NCBI RefSeq assembly: GCF_027925145.1
Contig: NZ_AP027130.1
Span: 1,116,001 to 1,180,000, forward strand
Length of the DNA: 64,000 bases
Direction: 5' to 3'
Origin: Thermodesulfomicrobium sp. WS
GTDB taxonomy: Bacteria; Desulfobacterota; Desulfovibrionia; Desulfovibrionales; Desulfomicrobiaceae
In this document: piece after piece, positions 11,348-20,369 of the stretch
Position numbering within the stretch: position 1 is the first letter of the stretch
How the letters are laid out: every line of letters begins with the position of its first letter
The notes under the pieces: generated by a model
What the model saw: only the letters and a program-made list of their open reading frames with translations
What the model was told of the DNA's origin: nothing
Databases searched by the model: none
Program-made: the position numbers and the translations under genes

Positions 11348-11424
<77 letters not shown>

Positions 11425-11433
11425 CTGGAAGAT

Positions 11434-11465
11434 AACGGTTCAGAGGTTCTCTGGACCGTTTTTTT
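11434..11465 (+). terminator. Rho-independent terminator of tRNA-Asp
   Basis: AACGGTTCAGAGG pairs imperfectly with TCTCTGGACCGTT (an AACGGT/ACCGTT outer stem and a CAGA/TCTG inner stem) and is followed by an unbroken T run. Confidence 0.85.
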
Positions 11466-11533: not shown

Positions 11534-12526
11534 TTACGTGGGGGAAGTTGTGGCCGCATGTGTTTCCGGCGGCTCATGGTGGCAGTCCTCGCGCACCAGT
11601 TCCACGCGGTCCCGCCCCAACGCCTTGGCCCGGTAGAGGGCTTCGTCGGCCCGGCGCAGCAGACGGTCCTGGGTATCGTCAGGGCGCAGACGGGCAATGC
11701 CCATACTCACGGTGATGACCGTGTGGGGATCCAGGATACGCGCCGTACGCATGGCCTCACCCAAGCGCTCGGCCACATGCAGGGCCTCGTTTTCTGTGGT
11801 GTGCGGCAGCAGCACGAGGAATTCTTCTCCTCCCATACGCACCGCCAAGTCTTCCTTACGGCAGGAATTTTTGAGGAGAGTGGCGAAATGCTGGAGTACG
11901 CGGTCGCCAGCCTCGTGCCCAAAGGAGTCGTTGATCTTTTTGAAGTGGTCCAAATCCGCCATGAGCACACACAGCGGGGAATTGTGGCGGCGGGCCAAAG
12001 AGATTGCTTCGTCGAAACGCTCGAGAAAATACCGGCGGTTGGCCAAACCGGTGAGGGGATCGGTGCGGCTCAAGACTTCGATGTGCGCTTTGGCCTCTTC
12101 CAGTTCGCGGTTTTTCTTGGCGAGATCGCGGCCAATGTTCACCAACTCGTTGGTGAGGGAAGTCATGGTCTGAAGAATGGCCTCGTTGGCCGTGCCGATG
12201 CGTTCGGCCAGGAGCACCGTGCCGTCGGTATAGTGCCAGCACATCATTTTGAAGAGATACATGGAGCCTCGAAGTTTGACCACCTGGGGCAGCGGTGCGC
12301 CGTTTACCATTTCAGCCAAGGACTCGAACTGCTCGCCCAGGGGGGTGATGAAGATCTCCGTCACCAGGGTGCCAATGGGACGTTCGTCCTTGTGGAGCAG
12401 GCGCATGAGGGCGAGGTTGCATGCCTTGACTGTGCCTTCGCGGTCGGCGTGGATGAGCACCACGGCGTCCGAATGTTCGAGGAATTGCTGCAACATCGGC
12501 AGCCACGGCGGTGTGGGTTCGTTCAT
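11534..12526 (-). CDS. PAS-like / GGDEF diguanylate cyclase
   Basis: Predicted cytoplasmic enzyme making c-di-GMP from two GTP. The 330-residue protein has an N-terminal PAS-like sensor (about 1-110), a coiled-coil linker (about 115-155, AKKNRELEEAKAHIEVL) and a complete GGDEF domain (about 160-315) starting at SRTDPLTGLANRRYF. The active site is GGEEF, and RKED lies five residues before it, so the allosteric product-inhibition site is intact. The ATG overlaps the TGA of the B12-binding gene, which ties the two together. It is the last gene of the cluster with the histidine kinase and response regulator. Confidence 0.92.
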   Translation of the reverse strand: MNEPTPPWLPMLQQFLEHSDAVVLIHADREGTVKACNLALMRLLHKDERPIGTLVTEIFITPLGEQFESLAEMVNGAPLPQVVKLRGSMYLFKMMCWHYTDGTVLLAERIGTANEAILQTMTSLTNELVNIGRDLAKKNRELEEAKAHIEVLSRTDPLTGLANRRYFLERFDEAISLARRHNSPLCVLMADLDHFKKINDSFGHEAGDRVLQHFATLLKNSCRKEDLAVRMGGEEFLVLLPHTTENEALHVAERLGEAMRTARILDPHTVITVSMGIARLRPDDTQDRLLRRADEALYRAKALGRDRVELVREDCHHEPPETHAATTSPT

Positions 12527-13629
12527 GGCTCCCTCTTGGAACGCAAGAGTTCTAGGGCCACGTCTCGGGCCGCACTGCAGGAGGGGGCAAAGGCATCGGC
12601 ACCGAGCGTGTGGGCGATTTCCGGGTCATGGAGCAAGGCCTGTCCGCCGACGAGGATGCGGATGCACGCGGTTTCCGGGTCCCGGCGCAGGTCAGCGATG
12701 GTGCGATGGGCTGCCTCCAGGTTGAAGGGCATGGCCACGGAAAGGCACAGCAAATCGGGTTGGGTGCGGCGCACGAATTCTTCCAAGTCCTGGCGAGGCG
12801 TGTTCGCCCCGAGGTAGTGGACGTTCCAGCCATCGCTCTCCAGCGCCATGGCCACCATCCAGGCGCCGATTTCGTGAAATTCGTTGGCGGCGGCGCTGAC
12901 CACTGCTGTGCCCCGGCGAAGCTCTGGAGGAGCGAAACTTGCGGCCGGGATGCTTGCCAGGATGCGGGCGACGATGGCTGAGGCCAGGTGTTCCTGGGCC
13001 ACGGTGATGGTGCCGTTTTCCCAGTGCGCGCCCACGGTGTAGAGGGCAGGCTGGAGCACTTGGATAAAGAACTCCAGCATGGAGTCGGCATCGTGCACCC
13101 ATTGGCGGACGTAGCTCAGACAGGCCACCACATCCCCGGCCATGATGGCCCGGGTAAAATCGGCGCAGGTGGGCTTCCATTTCGGGTCTTCGGGTTCCGG
13201 TGTGGGGCTGGGCCGTTGGGACTCCGCGATGGTTGTCTCGTGCCGGTCGAGCATCCATTGGTACACGGCGAGAATGCCGTCCACCGGAGGCGGCAGGATA
13301 CGGCTGATGGCGTTTATCCAGGTTTCCAACTCCACCCGGAAATACGCGTAGGCGACGCCCTGGTTGTGGTAGGCGCGATACACCCACGGGAGGGTTTTGC
13401 GCAGGAGCACGAAATTGCCCAAACGCAAGACCGTGGCCATGAAGGCGGCATGGTTGCGATGATTGGCGGCGATGGTTTCTCTGGGGCAATCATGCAGGAG
13501 ATCCATCAGGTCGGTTCGTGCAAAGAGAGCGGTATTGACGGCTTCCACCAAGGCGCTCGTATGCTGGGCATAATTTTCGGCCTGTTCTTGAGGCACCGGC
13601 GCGGGCAATGGATCTTGGGGCGCACACAT
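12523..13629 (-). CDS. B12-binding sensor protein (CarH-like cobalamin module)
   Basis: A 368-residue protein with no catalytic domain. Residues about 1-135 form a helical region I do not recognise. Residues about 150-225 are a B12-binding-2 four-helix cap and about 240-365 a Rossmann cobalamin domain. The cap has W203, then nine residues, then E213-H214: the Wx9EH signature of CarH photoreceptors that hold adenosylcobalamin. The lower axial ligand site is E250-x-H252-x-x-G. The residue after the Trp is Glu rather than the His used by Thermus CarH for its light adduct, so light sensing is unproven. No DNA-binding domain is present; output is probably by protein contact, plausibly with the overlapping diguanylate cyclase. 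Confidence 0.75.
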   Translation of the reverse strand: MCAPQDPLPAPVPQEQAENYAQHTSALVEAVNTALFARTDLMDLLHDCPRETIAANHRNHAAFMATVLRLGNFVLLRKTLPWVYRAYHNQGVAYAYFRVELETWINAISRILPPPVDGILAVYQWMLDRHETTIAESQRPSPTPEPEDPKWKPTCADFTRAIMAGDVVACLSYVRQWVHDADSMLEFFIQVLQPALYTVGAHWENGTITVAQEHLASAIVARILASIPAASFAPPELRRGTAVVSAAANEFHEIGAWMVAMALESDGWNVHYLGANTPRQDLEEFVRRTQPDLLCLSVAMPFNLEAAHRTIADLRRDPETACIRILVGGQALLHDPEIAHTLGADAFAPSCSAARDVALELLRSKREP

Positions 13630-13658
13630 AGTAGAGACCTCCGTAAGGGAACTCTACT
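13630..13658 (-). promoter_or_regulatory. Hairpin enclosing the Shine-Dalgarno of the B12-sensor gene
   Basis: A perfect 7-bp inverted repeat (AGTAGAG at 13658-13652, CTCTACT at 13636-13630 on the minus strand) encloses a 15-base loop that contains GGAGGT, and the stem ends directly at the ATG. It could modulate ribosome access. It could also be a DNA operator. Confidence 0.5.
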
Positions 13659-13761
13659 CCAATGCATGGAGAGAGCAAGAGGAAACCGACACATTGCCAG
13701 CCCTGGCCATCTCTTCCGAACGCCTGCGTTGGGGTGCATTGGCCGTGAGAGGAACATGGCC

Positions 13762-14889
13762 TTAAGGCATGGGGCAGCGTGGCGAGGCATCTTCCTTGGG
13801 CCGTAAAACCGCGATGGGCTCGCGGATGCCCAAGACCTGGGCAAATTGGAAACGTTCGATGGCTGCTTGCGAGATGGTTTGACCTTTGCGCATGAGGGTT
13901 TGCCCTTGAGCGGTGACCACCGGCTCGGCGAGCACCATGCCTGCGCGAAGCTCGGCGATGGGAAGCCGCTCTACCTGCTGGCCTGCTTGAGCCACGAGAT
14001 ACCATTGGAGCGCACCAACGATGCGGGGATCATATATTTCAGGATGCTGGCGCATGTGCTCCACTATGTGTTCTTCGTGGCCGCGGTTGGCGGCATCGGT
14101 GTAGTCCAAGGCCACTTTGAGGATGCGCGCTCCCAAACAGGGATTTTTTTCCAGCGGCGCTTCTTGGTCCGCCACCATCTCGGAGATCTCTTCCAGGCGG
14201 GGGAGGTTGCGGAGCACATTGGCGGCAATGGCCGGGTGCATGAGGAAGATTTGCTCTTCCTCCGGGGACAAGGTTTCTCCGGCCAAGCGGCGCTCCAAGA
14301 TGTCCTGAGGCAGGGACAGACAGCCGATTTGGCTGAGCATGGCCGCAAGTTCGTACTTCCAGAGCGCTTCTGCGCCGAGGAATTTGGCCATGGCCACGAT
14401 CAGCGCCTTGGCGCGTTCCCCCCGTCCATAAGCCGTAGGATTGGCCAACTCCAAGAGCTCGGACATGATCTGCACGCAGCCGCGCAGCGTGCCGTGGAGG
14501 AGCTGCTTTTCTGCCACCAGGAGCCGGTGCTGTTCCAGGGCGTCGGTGAGGGCGCGCGTGAGGGCGTCCGGGGGGCAGGGCTTGAGGAGAAAGCGGAATA
14601 CGGCCCCACGGTTCACGGCTTTCATGGCGTTGTCGATGTCCGCGTAGCCGGTGAGCATGATGCGTACCGTCTGTGGCCAGCGGTTTTTGACCACCTCCAG
14701 GAGTTCGGCGCCGCTCATGTTGGGCATGCGCATGTCCGCCACGACGACGGCAAATTCTGCGGCTTCGAGTTTTTTGAGGGCGGACTTTGGCCCTTCGGCG
14801 GTGTCTATGTCGAATTTGCCGCGCAGGTTGCGCTGGAAGGTGTCGAGAACGAACTTTTCGTCGTCCACAAATAAAATCCGTTCGGGCAT
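13762..14889 (-). CDS. Response regulator with degenerate HD-GYP/HDOD-like output domain
   Basis: A 375-residue two-component protein. Residues 1-125 form a receiver with acidic pocket D9/D10, phospho-acceptor D52 (VADMRMPNMSG), T80 and K103. Residues about 130-305 resemble an HD-GYP c-di-GMP phosphodiesterase (RpfG type), but the HD pair is replaced (AAMLSQIGCLSLPQDIL) and the HHE/GYP segment is not recognisable, so it is probably catalytically dead and acts by binding. A C-terminal domain (about 315-360, LRAGMVLAEPVV) is common in such proteins. It lies between the kinase and the B12-sensor genes and is likely phosphorylated by that kinase. Confidence 0.8.
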   Translation of the reverse strand: MPERILFVDDEKFVLDTFQRNLRGKFDIDTAEGPKSALKKLEAAEFAVVVADMRMPNMSGAELLEVVKNRWPQTVRIMLTGYADIDNAMKAVNRGAVFRFLLKPCPPDALTRALTDALEQHRLLVAEKQLLHGTLRGCVQIMSELLELANPTAYGRGERAKALIVAMAKFLGAEALWKYELAAMLSQIGCLSLPQDILERRLAGETLSPEEEQIFLMHPAIAANVLRNLPRLEEISEMVADQEAPLEKNPCLGARILKVALDYTDAANRGHEEHIVEHMRQHPEIYDPRIVGALQWYLVAQAGQQVERLPIAELRAGMVLAEPVVTAQGQTLMRKGQTISQAAIERFQFAQVLGIREPIAVLRPKEDASPRCPMP

Positions 14890-14976
14890 GGGGATACTCC
14901 GTTCGCTTGAAAGAGGTCCTGCGTGAGGCCGGCGGACAGTCCCTCGAGGGGCCGCCGATTATGGCGTGCGGGCCCT

Positions 14977-16515
14977 TCAAGGGGCGGCATCTTCTTCCGG
15001 CTCTGGGGGCCGCGGCAGGAAGATGGTAAATCGGGCCCCTTTGCCTGGGGAGCTGGTGCAGCGGAGCTCGCCGTTGTGGCCTTGGGCGATGATGCGCTGG
15101 GCGATGAAGAGTCCCTGGCCGGTACCTTCCCCCACAGGCTTGGTGGTGAAAAAGGGTTCGAAGATGCGCTGCCGCACGGCTTCGTCCATGCCAGGGCCGT
15201 TGTCTTCGATATGGATCTCCACGCCGCCGGGCACGGTTTGGGTTGCCACGCGGATGCGACCTGGAGTTTCTTGGTTGGGTGAGGCCGCGATGGCCTGCGC
15301 GGCGTTGACGATAATGTTGACAAGGACTTGCGTGATTTCTTGCGGGGCACAGGACACGGGGGGAAGCGATGGATCGAGGTCGGTGGTGAGCTCGGCCACG
15401 TATTTCCAGCTATTGCGCGTGAGCACCGTGGCGTGCTCGATCAGTGCATTGAGATCGGTGCGTTGATGCTCTCTGCCCGGGTGCGAGAAGCGGCGCATGG
15501 AATCCACGATATGGGTGATACGCTTGAGTCCTTCGTCCATCTGCGCCAGGACCGTGGGCATTTCTTTAAGAAAGGCAAGAACATCTTCCGGCGGTTGCGG
15601 GACGGTGCGGACCCATTCGTCAATGGCGGTGCAGGCATCCCGGAGATACCACAGGTTGCCTTGAATATACTGGATGGGCGAGCTGATTTCGTGGGCGATG
15701 CCTGCGGCCAGCTGTCCAATGGCCTCCAGTTTCTGGTTTTGGAGCATCTGGGTCTCGAGGATCTTGCGTTCGCTGATATCGACGATGATCCCTTCGAGGC
15801 GGCTTTTTTCTCCTTCCGGATCATGGAGTATCTGGGCGCTCACCAGACCATGAAAATGACTCCCATCGCGGCGTCGGAAAAGGATTTCCTTGTGCTGGAC
15901 CGATCCGTTGGTGCGTAACGCTTCGAGGAGGGCTGCGCGGTCTTCAGGGCGGGCATAGAGTTGGGTCGCGATGTCCTGCACTTCGGCGAGCATGGCTTGC
16001 GCGCTTGGGTAGCCGAAGATCCGGGCCATGCTGGGGTTGACCGTGAGCAGTCGGCCGTCCGGGGTAGACTGGAAGATGGCCTCGAAGGCATTGTTCACTA
16101 TCGCCGCGTACTTGTGTTCGACCATCTCCATGGTGGCTTTGAACCGTTCCAGTTGGGTGACGTCCCGGAGCACGCAGAGGTGCCCGCGTCGCTCTCCTGG
16201 TGCACCGGTGATCGCCGTGCGGGTGACGATGAAGCATCCAGGGATAGCCGGAAAAGAGGTGGGAGCGGTTTGGGGATGGCTAGGCAGAGGCAGCAAGCAC
16301 CAAGAGCACCCCAAGAGTTCGGCGCATGGTCTGCCGAGAATATCCTGCAATGGCAGGCGCAAAAGGCGACTCATGGCCACATTGGCCCAGCGCACCCGGC
16401 CTTCGGCGTCGGTCTCGAAGATCACATCCGGGATGGCATCGAAGATGCGTTCGAGGTCCGTCTTGGTGGCGGCAAGCCCTTTTTCCGGGGCATGGGCTTT
16501 GGGGGACGTGTTCAT
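14977..16515 (-). CDS. Cytoplasmic PAS-PAS sensor histidine kinase
   Basis: A 512-residue kinase without membrane segments. PAS1 is at about 17-125 (FDAIPDVIFETDAEGRVRWAN) and contains several Cys (C64, C70, C73), PAS2 at about 130-255 (PDGRLLTVNPSMARIFGY) with PAC, HisKA with the phospho-His H275 in GIAHEISSP, and HATPase_c with N box (NIIVNAAQAI), G1 (DNGPGMD) and G2 (GTGQGLFIA). It probably phosphorylates the response regulator 87 bases downstream. An intrinsic terminator ends only 6 bases before its ATG, so it either has no leader or relies on readthrough from apbE. Confidence 0.9.
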   Translation of the reverse strand: MNTSPKAHAPEKGLAATKTDLERIFDAIPDVIFETDAEGRVRWANVAMSRLLRLPLQDILGRPCAELLGCSWCLLPLPSHPQTAPTSFPAIPGCFIVTRTAITGAPGERRGHLCVLRDVTQLERFKATMEMVEHKYAAIVNNAFEAIFQSTPDGRLLTVNPSMARIFGYPSAQAMLAEVQDIATQLYARPEDRAALLEALRTNGSVQHKEILFRRRDGSHFHGLVSAQILHDPEGEKSRLEGIIVDISERKILETQMLQNQKLEAIGQLAAGIAHEISSPIQYIQGNLWYLRDACTAIDEWVRTVPQPPEDVLAFLKEMPTVLAQMDEGLKRITHIVDSMRRFSHPGREHQRTDLNALIEHATVLTRNSWKYVAELTTDLDPSLPPVSCAPQEITQVLVNIIVNAAQAIAASPNQETPGRIRVATQTVPGGVEIHIEDNGPGMDEAVRQRIFEPFFTTKPVGEGTGQGLFIAQRIIAQGHNGELRCTSSPGKGARFTIFLPRPPEPEEDAAP

Positions 16516-16521
16516 GGCATG

Positions 16522-16543
16522 AAAAAGCCGCCCGGGGGGCGGC
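16522..16543 (-). terminator. Rho-independent terminator of the rnf-apbE operon
   Basis: On the minus strand GCCGCCC, a 3-base loop and GGGCGGC are followed by TTTTT. It lies after the apbE stop and directly before the histidine kinase start. Confidence 0.85.
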
Positions 16544-16557
16544 GTGGAAAGAGTTTT

Positions 16558-17556
16558 TTAGGCCGGCCAGCCAGGGGATGCGAGGCACCCTCCGCTGGCG
16601 GTCACCAGGAAGCAGGCGCATCCCGGAAGACTTGCGATCAGGCGCAGGGCCTCGCGTGGCGGCATGAGGGAAAGGGCCGTGGCCAGACCGTCCGCCTGCA
16701 TGACGGTGGGCGCGATCACCGAGACACTGCGCACATGCTGGGGAGAGCGGCCGGAGCGCGGGTCCAGCAGGTGGTGGGTCGTGGCCCCCACCGGGTGCTC
16801 GTAGCCTCCGGAGGTGGCCACCGCGCCGTCGCGCAGGGGGATGGTGGTGGGGTACTGGCCGCGTTTCTCCGGATCCTCGATGGCCACCACCCAAGGCCGG
16901 CCGGAGGCATGTCCCTCTGGGGAGCCTTGGGCCCGGATATCGCCGCCGGCGTCCACGAGGAAGTGGGCGATGCCGTGCGCGCGCAGGGTTTGGGCCGCCG
17001 CGTCGGCGATATAGCCTTTGGCCACGCCGTCCAGGGTGATGGCCATGTCTTGAGCGAGCGCAAGATGGCCGCCTGCCATGCGGATTCGTCCACTGTCCAC
17101 AAGGGCCAAGGCCTCTCGGAGGTCTGCGGGGTCGGGGTTTGCCTGGGTGCGCTCCAAGAGGTCGAGGACCGGGGCGATGGTCATATCAAAGCGCCCGGCC
17201 GTGGCCTTATGGAGCTCGAGACCATATTCCATGACGGTCTGGAGTTCCCCAGGAATGTCGTGCAGCTGTCCGTGGGCGTTGAGCGCCGAAAGGGGGGTGC
17301 GGGGATTGTAGCGGCTCAGTATCCCATCGAGACGGTTGATGGTGGCGAATGCCGCATCCATCGCTTCCTGGGCCTGGTGGGCTGAAGGGGCGACCGCAGT
17401 GATGCCCACGATGGTTCCGAGCAGGAGGCGCTCCTCCTGGAGCGATGGCAGTCCTGCCGCAGCACAAGGCAGCGCGCGCAGTATTGGTGCTCCAGCCGTG
17501 GCCGCAGTGCAGGCCGCAAGGAGCTGGAGGGCTTGGCGACGATTCATGGTGCGCAT
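16558..17556 (-). CDS. apbE: FAD:protein FMN transferase
   Basis: Attaches FMN covalently to Thr in target proteins such as RnfG. The 332-residue protein carries the ApbE blocks LDGVAKGYIAD and FLVDAGGDI and a final TADGLATAL-like segment (MQADGLATALSLM). The N-terminus contains a twin-arginine-like NRRQALQLL and a lipobox-like LLAAC, so it is exported, by Tat and/or as a lipoprotein. The ATG at 17556 has GGAG at good spacing. It is the last gene of the rnf operon, where its substrate is encoded. Confidence 0.93.
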   Translation of the reverse strand: MRTMNRRQALQLLAACTAATAGAPILRALPCAAAGLPSLQEERLLLGTIVGITAVAPSAHQAQEAMDAAFATINRLDGILSRYNPRTPLSALNAHGQLHDIPGELQTVMEYGLELHKATAGRFDMTIAPVLDLLERTQANPDPADLREALALVDSGRIRMAGGHLALAQDMAITLDGVAKGYIADAAAQTLRAHGIAHFLVDAGGDIRAQGSPEGHASGRPWVVAIEDPEKRGQYPTTIPLRDGAVATSGGYEHPVGATTHHLLDPRSGRSPQHVRSVSVIAPTVMQADGLATALSLMPPREALRLIASLPGCACFLVTASGGCLASPGWPA

Positions 17557-17566
17557 GGTGCTTCTC

Positions 17567-18448
17567 CTACGCGTTGAGGTCCACCACGTGGGTTTCTTCC
17601 GGAATATGGGCGGGTTCGGTCTCCGGGGGGGCGGAGACGGTCTCGGGCTGGAGGCAACGCAAAATCGAGCGGGGGCACGTGGTCACGCAGATCTCTTCAC
17701 AGGAGGGACCGTAGGCCAGGCAGGCTTTGTGGTCGATGACGATGCGGTTGTCCTCGATGGCGATGGCCTTGGCCGGACACTTTTTCACACAGGCCCCGCA
17801 GCTGATGCACCCTGCCTCGCACACATCCTTGACGGCCTTGCCCTTGTCCTTGGAGGAGCAAAAGACCATGACCCGCGCCCGGCGGGGGATGAGTTCCAAG
17901 ATGCCGTTGGGGCAGGTGCGCACGCAGGTGCCGCAACTGGTGCATTTGGCAGGGGAAATGTGCACCAGGTGGTCTTCGATCCACATGGCGTCGAAGGGGC
18001 AGGCGCGCACGCAGTCCCCAAAGCCGATGCAGGAGTACCGGCAGGCATCAGGGCCACCGTCGAGCAGTTTCGCCCCGGCACAGGTGGTGGCGCCGGCGTA
18101 ATCGTACTTGTGGGCCACCTTGCCTTCCACTTTGACGCAGCGGCGGAAGGCCACCATAGGCTCCACTTCTCCGGCGGCCTTGCCGGTGAGTTCCGCCACC
18201 CGCTTGGCCACGTCCGGACCTCCGGCGCAGCAGCGGTTGGGGGGGACGTTGGGATCGTTGAGCACTGCCGTAGCATAGGCCTCGCACCCGGCGAAGCCGC
18301 ACCCACCGCAATTGGCCCCAGGCAGGGCCTCGGTGACCACCTCAATGCGAGGGTCTTCTTCCACGGCCAAAAGCCGCGAGGCCACCGAAAGGATACTGGC
18401 GGAGACAAAGCCCAGGCCGAACAAGGTGACGACGGATTCAGCAATCAT
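17567..18448 (-). CDS. rnfB: Rnf complex ferredoxin subunit RnfB
   Basis: Electron-input subunit of the membrane Rnf complex (ferredoxin:NAD oxidoreductase coupled to ion transport). The 293 residues begin with one membrane helix, followed by the 4Fe-4S four-Cys domain (GANCGGCGFAGC about residue 45) and several ferredoxin clusters (CRYSCIGFGDCVRACP, CTSCGTCVRTCP, CISCGACVKKCP). A further C-terminal CxxxxxxxCEEICxxxCP run suggests an additional site. It sits between rnfA and apbE. Confidence 0.95.
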   Translation of the reverse strand: MIAESVVTLFGLGFVSASILSVASRLLAVEEDPRIEVVTEALPGANCGGCGFAGCEAYATAVLNDPNVPPNRCCAGGPDVAKRVAELTGKAAGEVEPMVAFRRCVKVEGKVAHKYDYAGATTCAGAKLLDGGPDACRYSCIGFGDCVRACPFDAMWIEDHLVHISPAKCTSCGTCVRTCPNGILELIPRRARVMVFCSSKDKGKAVKDVCEAGCISCGACVKKCPAKAIAIEDNRIVIDHKACLAYGPSCEEICVTTCPRSILRCLQPETVSAPPETEPAHIPEETHVVDLNA

Positions 18449-18463
18449 GCGATGCTCCTGGGG

Positions 18464-19039
18464 TTAGGCGATCATACCTTTGAAGGCCAAGAAGGCGAGG
18501 GACATGATCCCCGCCATGACCAGACCACTGGGCACGCCCTGCATGGAGCGCGGCAGACGTGTCACCACAAAGCGCTCCCGAATGCCGGCCATGAGCACAA
18601 TGGCCAAAAGGAAGCCCAGAGATGCGGCGATGGAGTAGAGAAAGGACGTCCAGAGGTCGAACTCTTTGCGCTGCACCAAGATGGCCACACCGAGCACTGC
18701 ACAGTTGGTGGTGATGAGCGGGAGATAGATCCCCAAGCTCTTGTAGAGAGGAGGAACCATCTTTTTGAGGAACATCTCCACGAACTGGACGAGTGCTGCA
18801 ATCACCAGAATGAAGATGATTGTCTGGAGATATCCCAGTTGGAACGGGTTCATGATGTACTTTTGGATGAGGAAGGTAATGACGGTCGCCAGCACAATGA
18901 CGAAGAGTACGGCTGCACCCATGCCGATAGCGACGCTCTTTTCCTTGGAGCATCCAAGATACGGGCAATTGCCCAAATACTGCGCCAAGAGGATATTGTT
19001 GACGAAGATGGCGGAGATGAAGAGCAGAAAGATGTCCAT
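18464..19039 (-). CDS. rnfA: Rnf complex membrane subunit RnfA
   Basis: A 191-residue protein with six membrane helices, paralogous to RnfE. The conserved Cys segments are present (GNCPYLGCSK near residue 24 and ITTNCAVLG near 110); in the complex RnfA and RnfE share an intramembrane Fe-S cluster. Homologous to NqrE. Gaps to rnfE and rnfB are about 15 bases. Confidence 0.96.
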   Translation of the reverse strand: MDIFLLFISAIFVNNILLAQYLGNCPYLGCSKEKSVAIGMGAAVLFVIVLATVITFLIQKYIMNPFQLGYLQTIIFILVIAALVQFVEMFLKKMVPPLYKSLGIYLPLITTNCAVLGVAILVQRKEFDLWTSFLYSIAASLGFLLAIVLMAGIRERFVVTRLPRSMQGVPSGLVMAGIMSLAFLAFKGMIA

Positions 19040-19054
19040 ACGATGCTCCTTGCC

Positions 19055-19771
19055 TTAGGCCTTGGCGCCCAAGCGTTCCAAGCGTTTTTGGGCGGCGATC
19101 TCGTCCATTTTCTTACATGCCATGCAGCCTTTGCATCCGGCATCGAGATTGGGATCCACCTCTAAGCCTTTGCGTTTGGCCTGCCAGATGGTGAGGAAAT
19201 TCATGCCTGCCAGGATGAGTCCGAGGCAGACAAAGGCGCCGGGTGCCTGCACCATGAAAGTGAAGGGGTCAAAGCTCGGCCCGAACACGTGGTGACCAAA
19301 CCAGGTGCCTGCGCCGAAGATTTCCCGCAGGCTGCCGAGAAAGGTGAGCGACAGGGTGAAGCCGATGCCCATGCCCAATCCATCGGCCAGGGCCAGATGG
19401 GGCGGGTTCTTGGCGGCAAAGGCCTCGGCGCGGCCGAGGATGATGCAGTTGACCACGATGAGCGGCACGAAGATGCCGAGCTGTTGGTAGAGGGGGTAGG
19501 CAAAGGCCTGCATGAGCATCTCCACGGCCACCACCAGGGAAGCGGCGATGGCAATGAAGCAGGCGATACGCACCTTTTTGGGGATGATGGAGCGCACGAG
19601 GGAAATCAGCACATTGGAGAGGGCAAGCACAAAGATGACCGCCGCGCCCATGCCGAGGCCGTTTTCGGCGCTGGTGGTCACCGCCAGGGTGGGGCACAGG
19701 CCGAGCACCAGGCGAAAGGGCGGAATTTCTTTCCAGAGACCTTTGGTGAATTCGGAGGTTATGGAGCCCAT
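19055..19771 (-). CDS. rnfE: Rnf complex membrane subunit RnfE with CxxCxxC tail
   Basis: A 238-residue integral membrane subunit, partner of RnfA, with the conserved Cys segments LGLCPTLAVT (about 28) and VNCIILGRAEA. The ATG at 19771 has AGGAAG upstream; an open extension further upstream lies inside rnfG and is a shadow. After the last helix is a soluble tail containing C213, C216 and C219 (GCKGCMACKK), which I do not know from canonical RnfE or NqrD and which could bind metal or Fe-S. Confidence 0.93.
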   Translation of the reverse strand: MGSITSEFTKGLWKEIPPFRLVLGLCPTLAVTTSAENGLGMGAAVIFVLALSNVLISLVRSIIPKKVRIACFIAIAASLVVAVEMLMQAFAYPLYQQLGIFVPLIVVNCIILGRAEAFAAKNPPHLALADGLGMGIGFTLSLTFLGSLREIFGAGTWFGHHVFGPSFDPFTFMVQAPGAFVCLGLILAGMNFLTIWQAKRKGLEVDPNLDAGCKGCMACKKMDEIAAQKRLERLGAKA

Positions 19772-19781
19772 AGCGTACTTC

Positions 19782-20369
19782 CTATTGCCAGGTGGTTTTG
19801 ATGGAATCTTTGAGCGCAGCGTACCAGCCGGCGACCTGTTTGACGGCTTCCGTGGCCCCGATGGACGAGTAGGTAGCGCCGGAAATGGCGTCGATGTCTC
19901 CACCTTCTTTTTTGAGCTTGGCCTTTTCGAGGAGCCGCCCTTTGAACTGCTTGGTAAAGCTGGGCTCAGCCACTCGGGAGCCGATGCCCGGGGTTTCCTT
20001 GTGGGTGGTGATGCTGATGCCCACGACTTTGTCGGTCGTGGTGTCGATACCGACGATGACATTGACGTCACCACCATACCCCTTGCCTGCACCTTCCATG
20101 GCGATGGCCTGCAGCTTCCCGTTTTTCATGACCGGGAACACCAAGAGTTCCTCGTTGGGACCGCCGCCGGGCTTGGCGAATTTTTTCCGGTCAGCGATGG
20201 GATCGTTGGCGGCATCGAAGAAGACTTGCTGGATGGCGGGTTTTTGTACGTAAGTGAGAACCTGCTCTTCAATGATGGGCGAGGTCCACACCTTGAGGCC
20301 CGAAAGGACAAATCCCGCCAGGCCGGTGATTGCCGACAGCACGACGATCATGCGGACAATTTCCATCAT
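19782..20369 (-). CDS. rnfG: Rnf complex flavoprotein subunit RnfG
   Basis: Periplasmic FMN-carrying subunit, 195 residues: one N-terminal membrane helix (about 5-25) followed by an FMN-binding domain. The ApbE target motif is DAISGATYSS with flavinylated Thr predicted at T166. Homologous to NqrC. ApbE is encoded in the same operon. Confidence 0.94.
   Translation of the reverse strand: MMEIVRMIVVLSAITGLAGFVLSGLKVWTSPIIEEQVLTYVQKPAIQQVFFDAANDPIADRKKFAKPGGGPNEELLVFPVMKNGKLQAIAMEGAGKGYGGDVNVIVGIDTTTDKVVGISITTHKETPGIGSRVAEPSFTKQFKGRLLEKAKLKKEGGDIDAISGATYSSIGATEAVKQVAGWYAALKDSIKTTWQ

Follow-up and report, generated by a model that had tools for sequence, protein, structure and literature searches.

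How might a CarH-type cobalamin protein that carries no DNA-binding domain signal, and does the diguanylate cyclase gene next to it have any part in this? The question is raised by a 64,000-nucleotide stretch of the Thermodesulfomicrobium sp. WS genome (the window; NZ_AP027130.1, positions 1,116,001 to 1,180,000), in which genes for a histidine kinase, a response regulator, a cobalamin protein and a GGDEF protein follow one another at 11534–16515. An original prediction read all four as one cluster linking B12 or redox state to cyclic diguanylate (c-di-GMP). We favour, at a probability of roughly 0.57, a two-protein switch formed by the last two genes, in which a globin plus CarH-type photosensor would act on a separate cyclase. 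The features of this pair are:

12523–13629, minus strand: globin-cobalamin sensor protein, 368 amino acids, B12-binding_2 and B12-binding domains (open reading frame (ORF), Pfam, AlphaFold2 fold)
13216–13596, minus strand: predicted globin-fold domain, residues 12–138, photoglobin/phycobiliprotein-like, without a Pfam name (AlphaFold2 and structure comparison)
12934–13185, minus strand: four-helix B12 cap, residues 149–232, in which W203 and E213-H214 cover the expected adenosyl position (PF02607)
12541–12915, minus strand: Rossmann B12-binding domain, residues 239–363, with the E250-x-H252 lower-ligand motif (PF02310)
12523–12526, minus strand: ATGA overlap of the sensor stop and the cyclase start (sequence reading)
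11534–12526, minus strand: diguanylate cyclase partner (GGDEF), 330 amino acids (ORF call and Pfam)
12077–12505, minus strand: partner front, made of a PAS-like domain and a coiled coil; it adjoins cobalamin sensors and is joined to several kinds of output (locus comparison)
11606–12064, minus strand: GGDEF domain with GGEEF active site and RxxD inhibitory site (Pfam and reading)

The layout first described is real: all four ORFs lie on the minus strand, and the cobalamin and GGDEF genes share an ATGA at 12523–12526. Within the sensor, Pfam covers residues 156–345 only, and neither the Pfam scan nor an AlphaFold2 model of the full chain (41 homologues; predicted local distance difference test (pLDDT) 94.4, predicted template modelling score (pTM) 0.89) revealed a DNA-binding domain, the MerR type included, in line with the initial claim. 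The structures closest to the B12 half are the photocobilins 8j2w, 8j2x and 8j2y (Z 25.3, 25.0 and 25.0; root-mean-square deviation (rmsd) 1.8–2.2 over 205–211 residues, with 8j2w at 1.8 over 205), ranking above a methylamine corrinoid protein (Z 23.1), MetH (22.4) and CarH (at most 19.8). At the expected adenosylcobalamin (AdoCbl) site, W203, E213 and H252 are kept in 41/41 full-length relatives, and H214 and E250 in 40/41; W203, E213, H214 and H252 were absent from the patterns used to search for loci. These four residues align with the CarH site W131, E141, H142 and H177, as numbered in the pertinent section of PMC11796333. By alignment, the residues with which light-responsive proteins contact AdoCbl are present in the cobalamin module.

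The sensor is not the stand-alone CarH-type protein initially supposed, as residues ~12–138 make up a separate domain, for which a globin fold is firmly predicted. Modelled alone with AlphaFold2, the N-terminal 150 residues also adopt this fold (pLDDT 95.0). In the VIA comparison, where rows within 1 Z count as ties and scores of this size come readily to helical folds, the domain matched the bilin-binding smURFP (Z 13.8), the DosC globin (13.2), allophycocyanins (~13), the photocobilin globin of 8j2x (12.3; rmsd 3.1, 119 aligned) and RsbR (11.8). Foldseek alone found no match to it at E <= 0.001 (best E 0.021), and because a profile search against the PDB returned no relative and no photocobilin (one chance match, E 0.29), the globin assignment rests on fold comparison. 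A bilin-type globin is only likely. Asp270, which holds the biliverdin pyrroles in the photocobilin SasPcob according to the relevant part of PMC10979010, maps near sensor residues 56–61 (N56-H57-x-x-H60), by aligned ranges and not residue by residue.

Conservation argues that sensor and cyclase belong together. Among the 61 nearest genomes, six contain an intact sensor gene (G000, G008, G015, G023, G026 and G059; G and L numbers are our handles for genomes and loci), and a related GGDEF gene follows it in all six. G058 holds a contig-end fragment, and the gene is missing from G001 and G002, the two further members of the genus that were searched (83–85% complete). Among 84,980 species genomes scanned, 57 loci were found: 45 with globin and B12 domains in one gene (in L089 fused only across two reading frames, in L095 short), 4 with separate genes (L096, L097, L099, L100) and 8 fragments or lone domains (L098, L101, L103–L108); L094 ends at a contig edge, and L060 and L067, from a single bin, are nearly identical. 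The partner front lies next to the sensor in 41 of the 44 testable one-gene loci, following directly in 39/40 full-length loci with a next ORF, and additionally in L089 and L095. An in-frame partner start no later than the final base of the sensor stop was tallied by eye in 33/39 cases. The loci carry about ten NCBI phylum labels (Thermodesulfobacteriota, Pseudomonadota, Myxococcota, Spirochaetota, Fibrobacterota, Planctomycetota, Thermomicrobiota, Bacillota, Fermentibacterota and Delongiibacteriota), of which single ones may be wrong because most rows are metagenome-assembled genomes (MAGs). Eight loci come from purple sulfur phototrophs.

Co-occurrence points the same way. In a sample of 395 genomes of the phylum, with E cut-offs of 1e-3 for the globin domain and 1e-12 for the partner front, the globin domain was present in 16, the front in 18 and both in 14. 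Excluding the window's genome, the front occurs in 13/15 globin genomes versus 4/379 others (Fisher p 3e-19), and in 12 of the 13 co-occurring genomes the two lie no more than 1.2 kb apart on one contig, the exception being G432 (29 kb). G478 has the globin domain and gave no partner match. Seven places were re-inspected: G169, G432, a second front in G035, and four genomes that have a front without a globin match (G124, G174, G237 and G316). A B12 module was found close to the front in L131, L133, L134 and partly L130, and none in L129 and L132. Additionally, the globin is a separate gene beside the B12 module and partner in L040, L041, L096, L097, L099 and L100. Since fronts without globin often adjoin a B12 module, the unit seems to consist of B12 module and partner, with the globin fused or separate. 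The sensor-partner tie is deeply conserved, beyond chance, with the B12-GGDEF order kept by orthologues elsewhere.

In the window, the partner GGDEF domain is recognised by Pfam at E 1.9e-49, and reading of its sequence shows both the GGEEF active site and the RxxD inhibitory site intact, as had been claimed. The front scores 17.4 bits against PAS_8, below cut-off, in the window, and 24.3 bits against PAS_4, above cut-off, in L081; the coiled coil behind the PAS-like part is of the type LNNELxxLxRELxKKNRELE. What follows the front varies among 39 partners: GGDEF in 26 (RxxD in 26/26, GGEEF in 24, GGEEL in 2), a CxxC...CxxC mini-domain in 10 (nine by pattern, L061 by eye) and a histidine kinase in three (L053, L076, L081), with the L061 and L070 partners split across two reading frames. 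Because output class, assigned by eye, switches at least six times along the sensor tree, sensor and front have been kept together while the output was exchanged.

The mini-domain, C-terminal in place of GGDEF, has the consensus IPICxxCKxIRDDxGYWxxLExYIxxHSxAxFSHGICPxC, resembles a zinc ribbon and gave no clear Pfam match in the copies scanned; it lies downstream of the sensor in L056, L059, L061, L062, L063, L066, L070, L077, L080, L095 and L102. In L071 (10056–10830), ~740 bases between sensor and front encode what looks by eye like a MEDS-like domain, fused ahead of a PAS-like/GGDEF partner. In a Desulfohalobiaceae bin (L079/L035, 2437–4143), the gene after the sensor-cyclase pair looks by eye like one for a KaiC-like ATPase (P-loop GDAGAGKT), and a link to clock-like control is possible.

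In the two-protein switch, the sensor would hold base-off AdoCbl in the dark, with H252 as lower ligand and W203, E213 and H214 packed around the adenosyl group. Light, the likely input signal, would break the Co-C bond, upon which the adenosyl group would depart and the helical cap and dimer interface would shift. This change would reach the PAS-like/coiled-coil front of the partner via direct contact, and the GGDEF domain would then alter the rate of c-di-GMP synthesis, with low activity in the dark and high activity in the light if the analogy with the photocobilin AbDPcob holds. AdoCbl binding, the light stimulus, physical contact and the direction of the effect are inferred. The kinase and the response regulator with its dead HD motif would supply a lineage-specific second input. 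More broadly, the family might be a widespread B12 two-protein system under about ten phylum labels, in which a light sensor addresses a dedicated front with varied outputs and the globin is bilin-free in most hosts, many of them anaerobes; we put this tentative generalisation at slightly less than even odds.

Several observations weigh against the light-driven switch. The published signature of light-responsive cobalamin-binding domains (SignatureFinder) consists, in the section of PMC11796333 that sets it out, of GxxW, EH, GxxH and GxxxP; three of the four elements are present in the sensor and the full signature is not. The GxxH element reads N249-E-F-H252, with N at position 249 in 36/41 relatives and G in 2/41, and a strict signature search would presumably miss the family because of this N-x-x-H. 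No binding, spectral or activity data for the family were found. The partner is absent in L065, L068 and L083, G169 (L135) contains a weak globin-B12 ORF with no partner front nearby, and no ORF fusing sensor and front was found in 135 loci. Judging by record titles, many carriers are sediment or groundwater bins without obvious light exposure. Cofactor supply is also uneven: the window's genome has an adenosyltransferase of the CobA/CobO/BtuR type (PduO type not found), as do 30/46 sensor-carrying genomes, and 4 of the other 16 have the PduO type. Neither family was found in 12/46 carriers, six of which are purple sulfur bacteria and one the 99%-complete G026, a count that is weak for MAGs, as are the absence counts below, with completeness available for only 7/46 genomes. 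This speaks against AdoCbl in these 12 hosts, unless an enzyme escaped the search or is missing from the assembly.

The same two proteins could instead respond to a chemical signal, either the amount of cobalamin or its upper ligand (AdoCbl versus hydroxo- or methylcobalamin), so that the cyclase would report B12 status. We consider this unlikely, though it survives best among the alternatives. It suits the many sulfate-reducer and sediment bins among the carriers, as well as the apparent want of a second chromophore: heme oxygenase (PF01126) was found in 7/46 carriers, of which five are purple sulfur bacteria, and the other 39, among them the window's complete genome, gave no match, while HugZ-type heme degradation (PF10615) was found in 0/46. 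Since heme oxygenase is so rarely found, a bilin is an unlikely second chromophore in most hosts, and the globin may function without one. Similarly, H132, which is part of the CarH light state, has no counterpart in the sensor, where position 204 is E in 41/41; yet the photocobilins in the inspected alignments likewise lack a His after the Trp and are light-responsive. Against a purely chemical signal stand also the complete adenosyl-pocket residue set and the presence of the sensor-partner pair in purple sulfur phototrophs.

A distinctly less probable reading assigns sensing to the globin, which would detect gas, haem or another tetrapyrrole, with cobalamin in a structural or tuning role and the switch acting as a redox or gas sensor. 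The haem-sensor fold of DosC does match the domain about as well as phycobiliproteins do (Z 13.2 and 13.8), a bilin supply was not found in most carrier genomes, and N56, H57, H60, W82, Y87, Y96 and Y123 are invariant among full-length relatives; the invariance of N56, H57, H60, W82 and Y87, however, is partly forced, as these lie within the locus search patterns. Furthermore, four relatives (L096, L097, L099 and L100) retain globin, B12 and partner as adjoining separate genes, so the B12 protein stays in the set. A last reading, in which the cobalamin protein merely carries methyl groups on a corrinoid and the neighbouring cyclase is unrelated, is very improbable, as the distant MtgC/MtbC/MetH profile matches in its favour face NCBIfam matches that are all far below cut-off, a photocobilin as the nearest fold, and the conservation and co-occurrence of the partner.

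Upstream of the sensor-cyclase pair lie the remaining two genes and their boundary:

14977–16515, minus strand: soluble PAS-PAS histidine kinase, 512 amino acids (ORF call and Pfam)
13762–14889, minus strand: response regulator, REC plus degenerate HD_5 output, 375 amino acids (ORF call and Pfam)
16527–16543, minus strand: terminator-like hairpin between apbE and the kinase gene (consensus match only)

The kinase has two PAS domains and is predicted to be cytoplasmic, as first proposed, with a membrane-helix-type hydrophobic stretch in none of the four proteins (maximum KD19 1.69). Active HD-GYP-type enzymes carry HDxGK where the regulator has AAMLSQIGCLSLP, at residue 182; the metal-binding HD motif of an HD-GYP phosphodiesterase is lost, consistent with the dead HD-GYP-like output described at the outset. 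The regulator also comes near the NosR family, at 219 bits under a cut-off of 400. Of the gene order, the sensor-GGDEF step was kept in all six genomes of the order with an intact sensor gene, whereas kinase and regulator both adjoin the sensor in only two of them, G000 and G008; G008 has the regulator orthologue (58%) beside the pair, and G015 has a related kinase upstream of the pair and no such regulator. We therefore dropped kinase and regulator from the core. They are a local, lineage-specific addition, joining the pair only in close relatives, and the notion of a four-gene signalling unit does not hold; nor does any specific feature speak for its proposed redox input.

The G008 and G015 kinases (L032, 2533–5421; L033, 10750–13617) have several hundred extra residues compared to the window kinase, some of them N-terminal, possibly another sensor domain. 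In L083, a spirochaete bin whose sensor has no partner, a kinase and a response regulator lie 5 kb on, at 15315–18409; they are related to those of the window at 29% and, over nearly the full length, at 35%, respectively.

At 16558–20092 of the window, the signalling genes are immediately preceded, in like orientation, by apbE (PF02424) and by rnf-like genes recognised by eye (a ferredoxin-like protein at 17567–18448, membrane proteins at 18464–19039 and on). The signalling set is probably not a mere tail of these genes, because the hairpin, a consensus match only, separates the kinase gene from apbE. This GC-rich hairpin with its T-run lies ~12 bases upstream of the kinase ATG, so that a promoter would have little room there. 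A promoter-consensus scan found 0 matches against 1.1 expected, which is little informative for this organism, and a search for an upstream riboswitch gave only tRNA as Rfam matches in the window. A tRNA-Asp gene (11348–11424, plus strand) is oriented towards the GGDEF gene and meets it from the 3' side, and a long palindrome with a T-run at 11434–11460 may terminate transcription from either side.

How much of this is new? The photocobilins AbDPcob and SasPcob combine B12 and globin domains (Nat Commun 2024, PMC10979010; PDB 8j2w, 8j2x, 8j2y). The pertinent passages of that paper report that the fused cyclase of AbDPcob turns over more than 10-fold faster in light and that isolated photocobilins act in trans on its cyclase domain (AbDGC), and they name groups in which the B12 domain is N-terminal or C-terminal. 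A path from AdoCbl or light to c-di-GMP, presented as undescribed in the original prediction, had thus been demonstrated for a fused photocobilin in 2024, and the mechanism class is known because of this light-controlled cyclase and its action in trans (PMC10979010).

With photocobilins, the window's sensor shares a CarH-type AdoCbl module with W...EH and E/DxH residues, a globin fold in the same protein and a link to a diguanylate cyclase. It differs in domain order, with globin first and B12 second, in having its cyclase encoded by another gene and provided with a PAS-like/coiled-coil front, and in its hosts, of which most lack a detected heme oxygenase. Photoglobin-B12 proteins were reportedly described by Schneider et al. 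in 2022 as globin-B12 fusions, predicted to form a light-sensing bundle in signal transduction; PMC10151467 and PMC10979010 both mention them. CarH/LitR (PDB 5c8a, 5c8d) share the AdoCbl cap, the Rossmann domain and the W/E/H/H site, whereas the window sensor has no MerR domain, carries E in place of His after the site Trp and has an enzyme as output. BBAG-2 globins adjoin B12-binding genes in Myxococcales (PNAS 2023, PMC10151467), much like the split-gene relatives described above; unlike the present system, in the parts of that paper concerned with them, they accompany heme oxygenase and bind biliverdin. We found no description of a two-gene sensor-partner arrangement in the openly licensed literature. 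New, as far as that literature goes, is the arrangement: the natural split of sensor and cyclase in a conserved overlapping pair and the dedicated front with exchangeable outputs. The reversed domain order and hosts mostly without detected heme oxygenase set the system apart from the published photocobilins as well.

Because sensor and effector are separate proteins, their coupling can be measured directly in vitro, and with heme oxygenase apparently lacking from most hosts, it can be tested whether a bilin is needed by every photoglobin domain. If our reading is true, the receptor domain, being exchangeable, would offer green-light optogenetics a ready-made component. B12 photoreception linked to c-di-GMP would then be a modular system of sulfate reducers, purple sulfur bacteria and others, extending beyond a few fusion proteins and into bacteria without a known light response.

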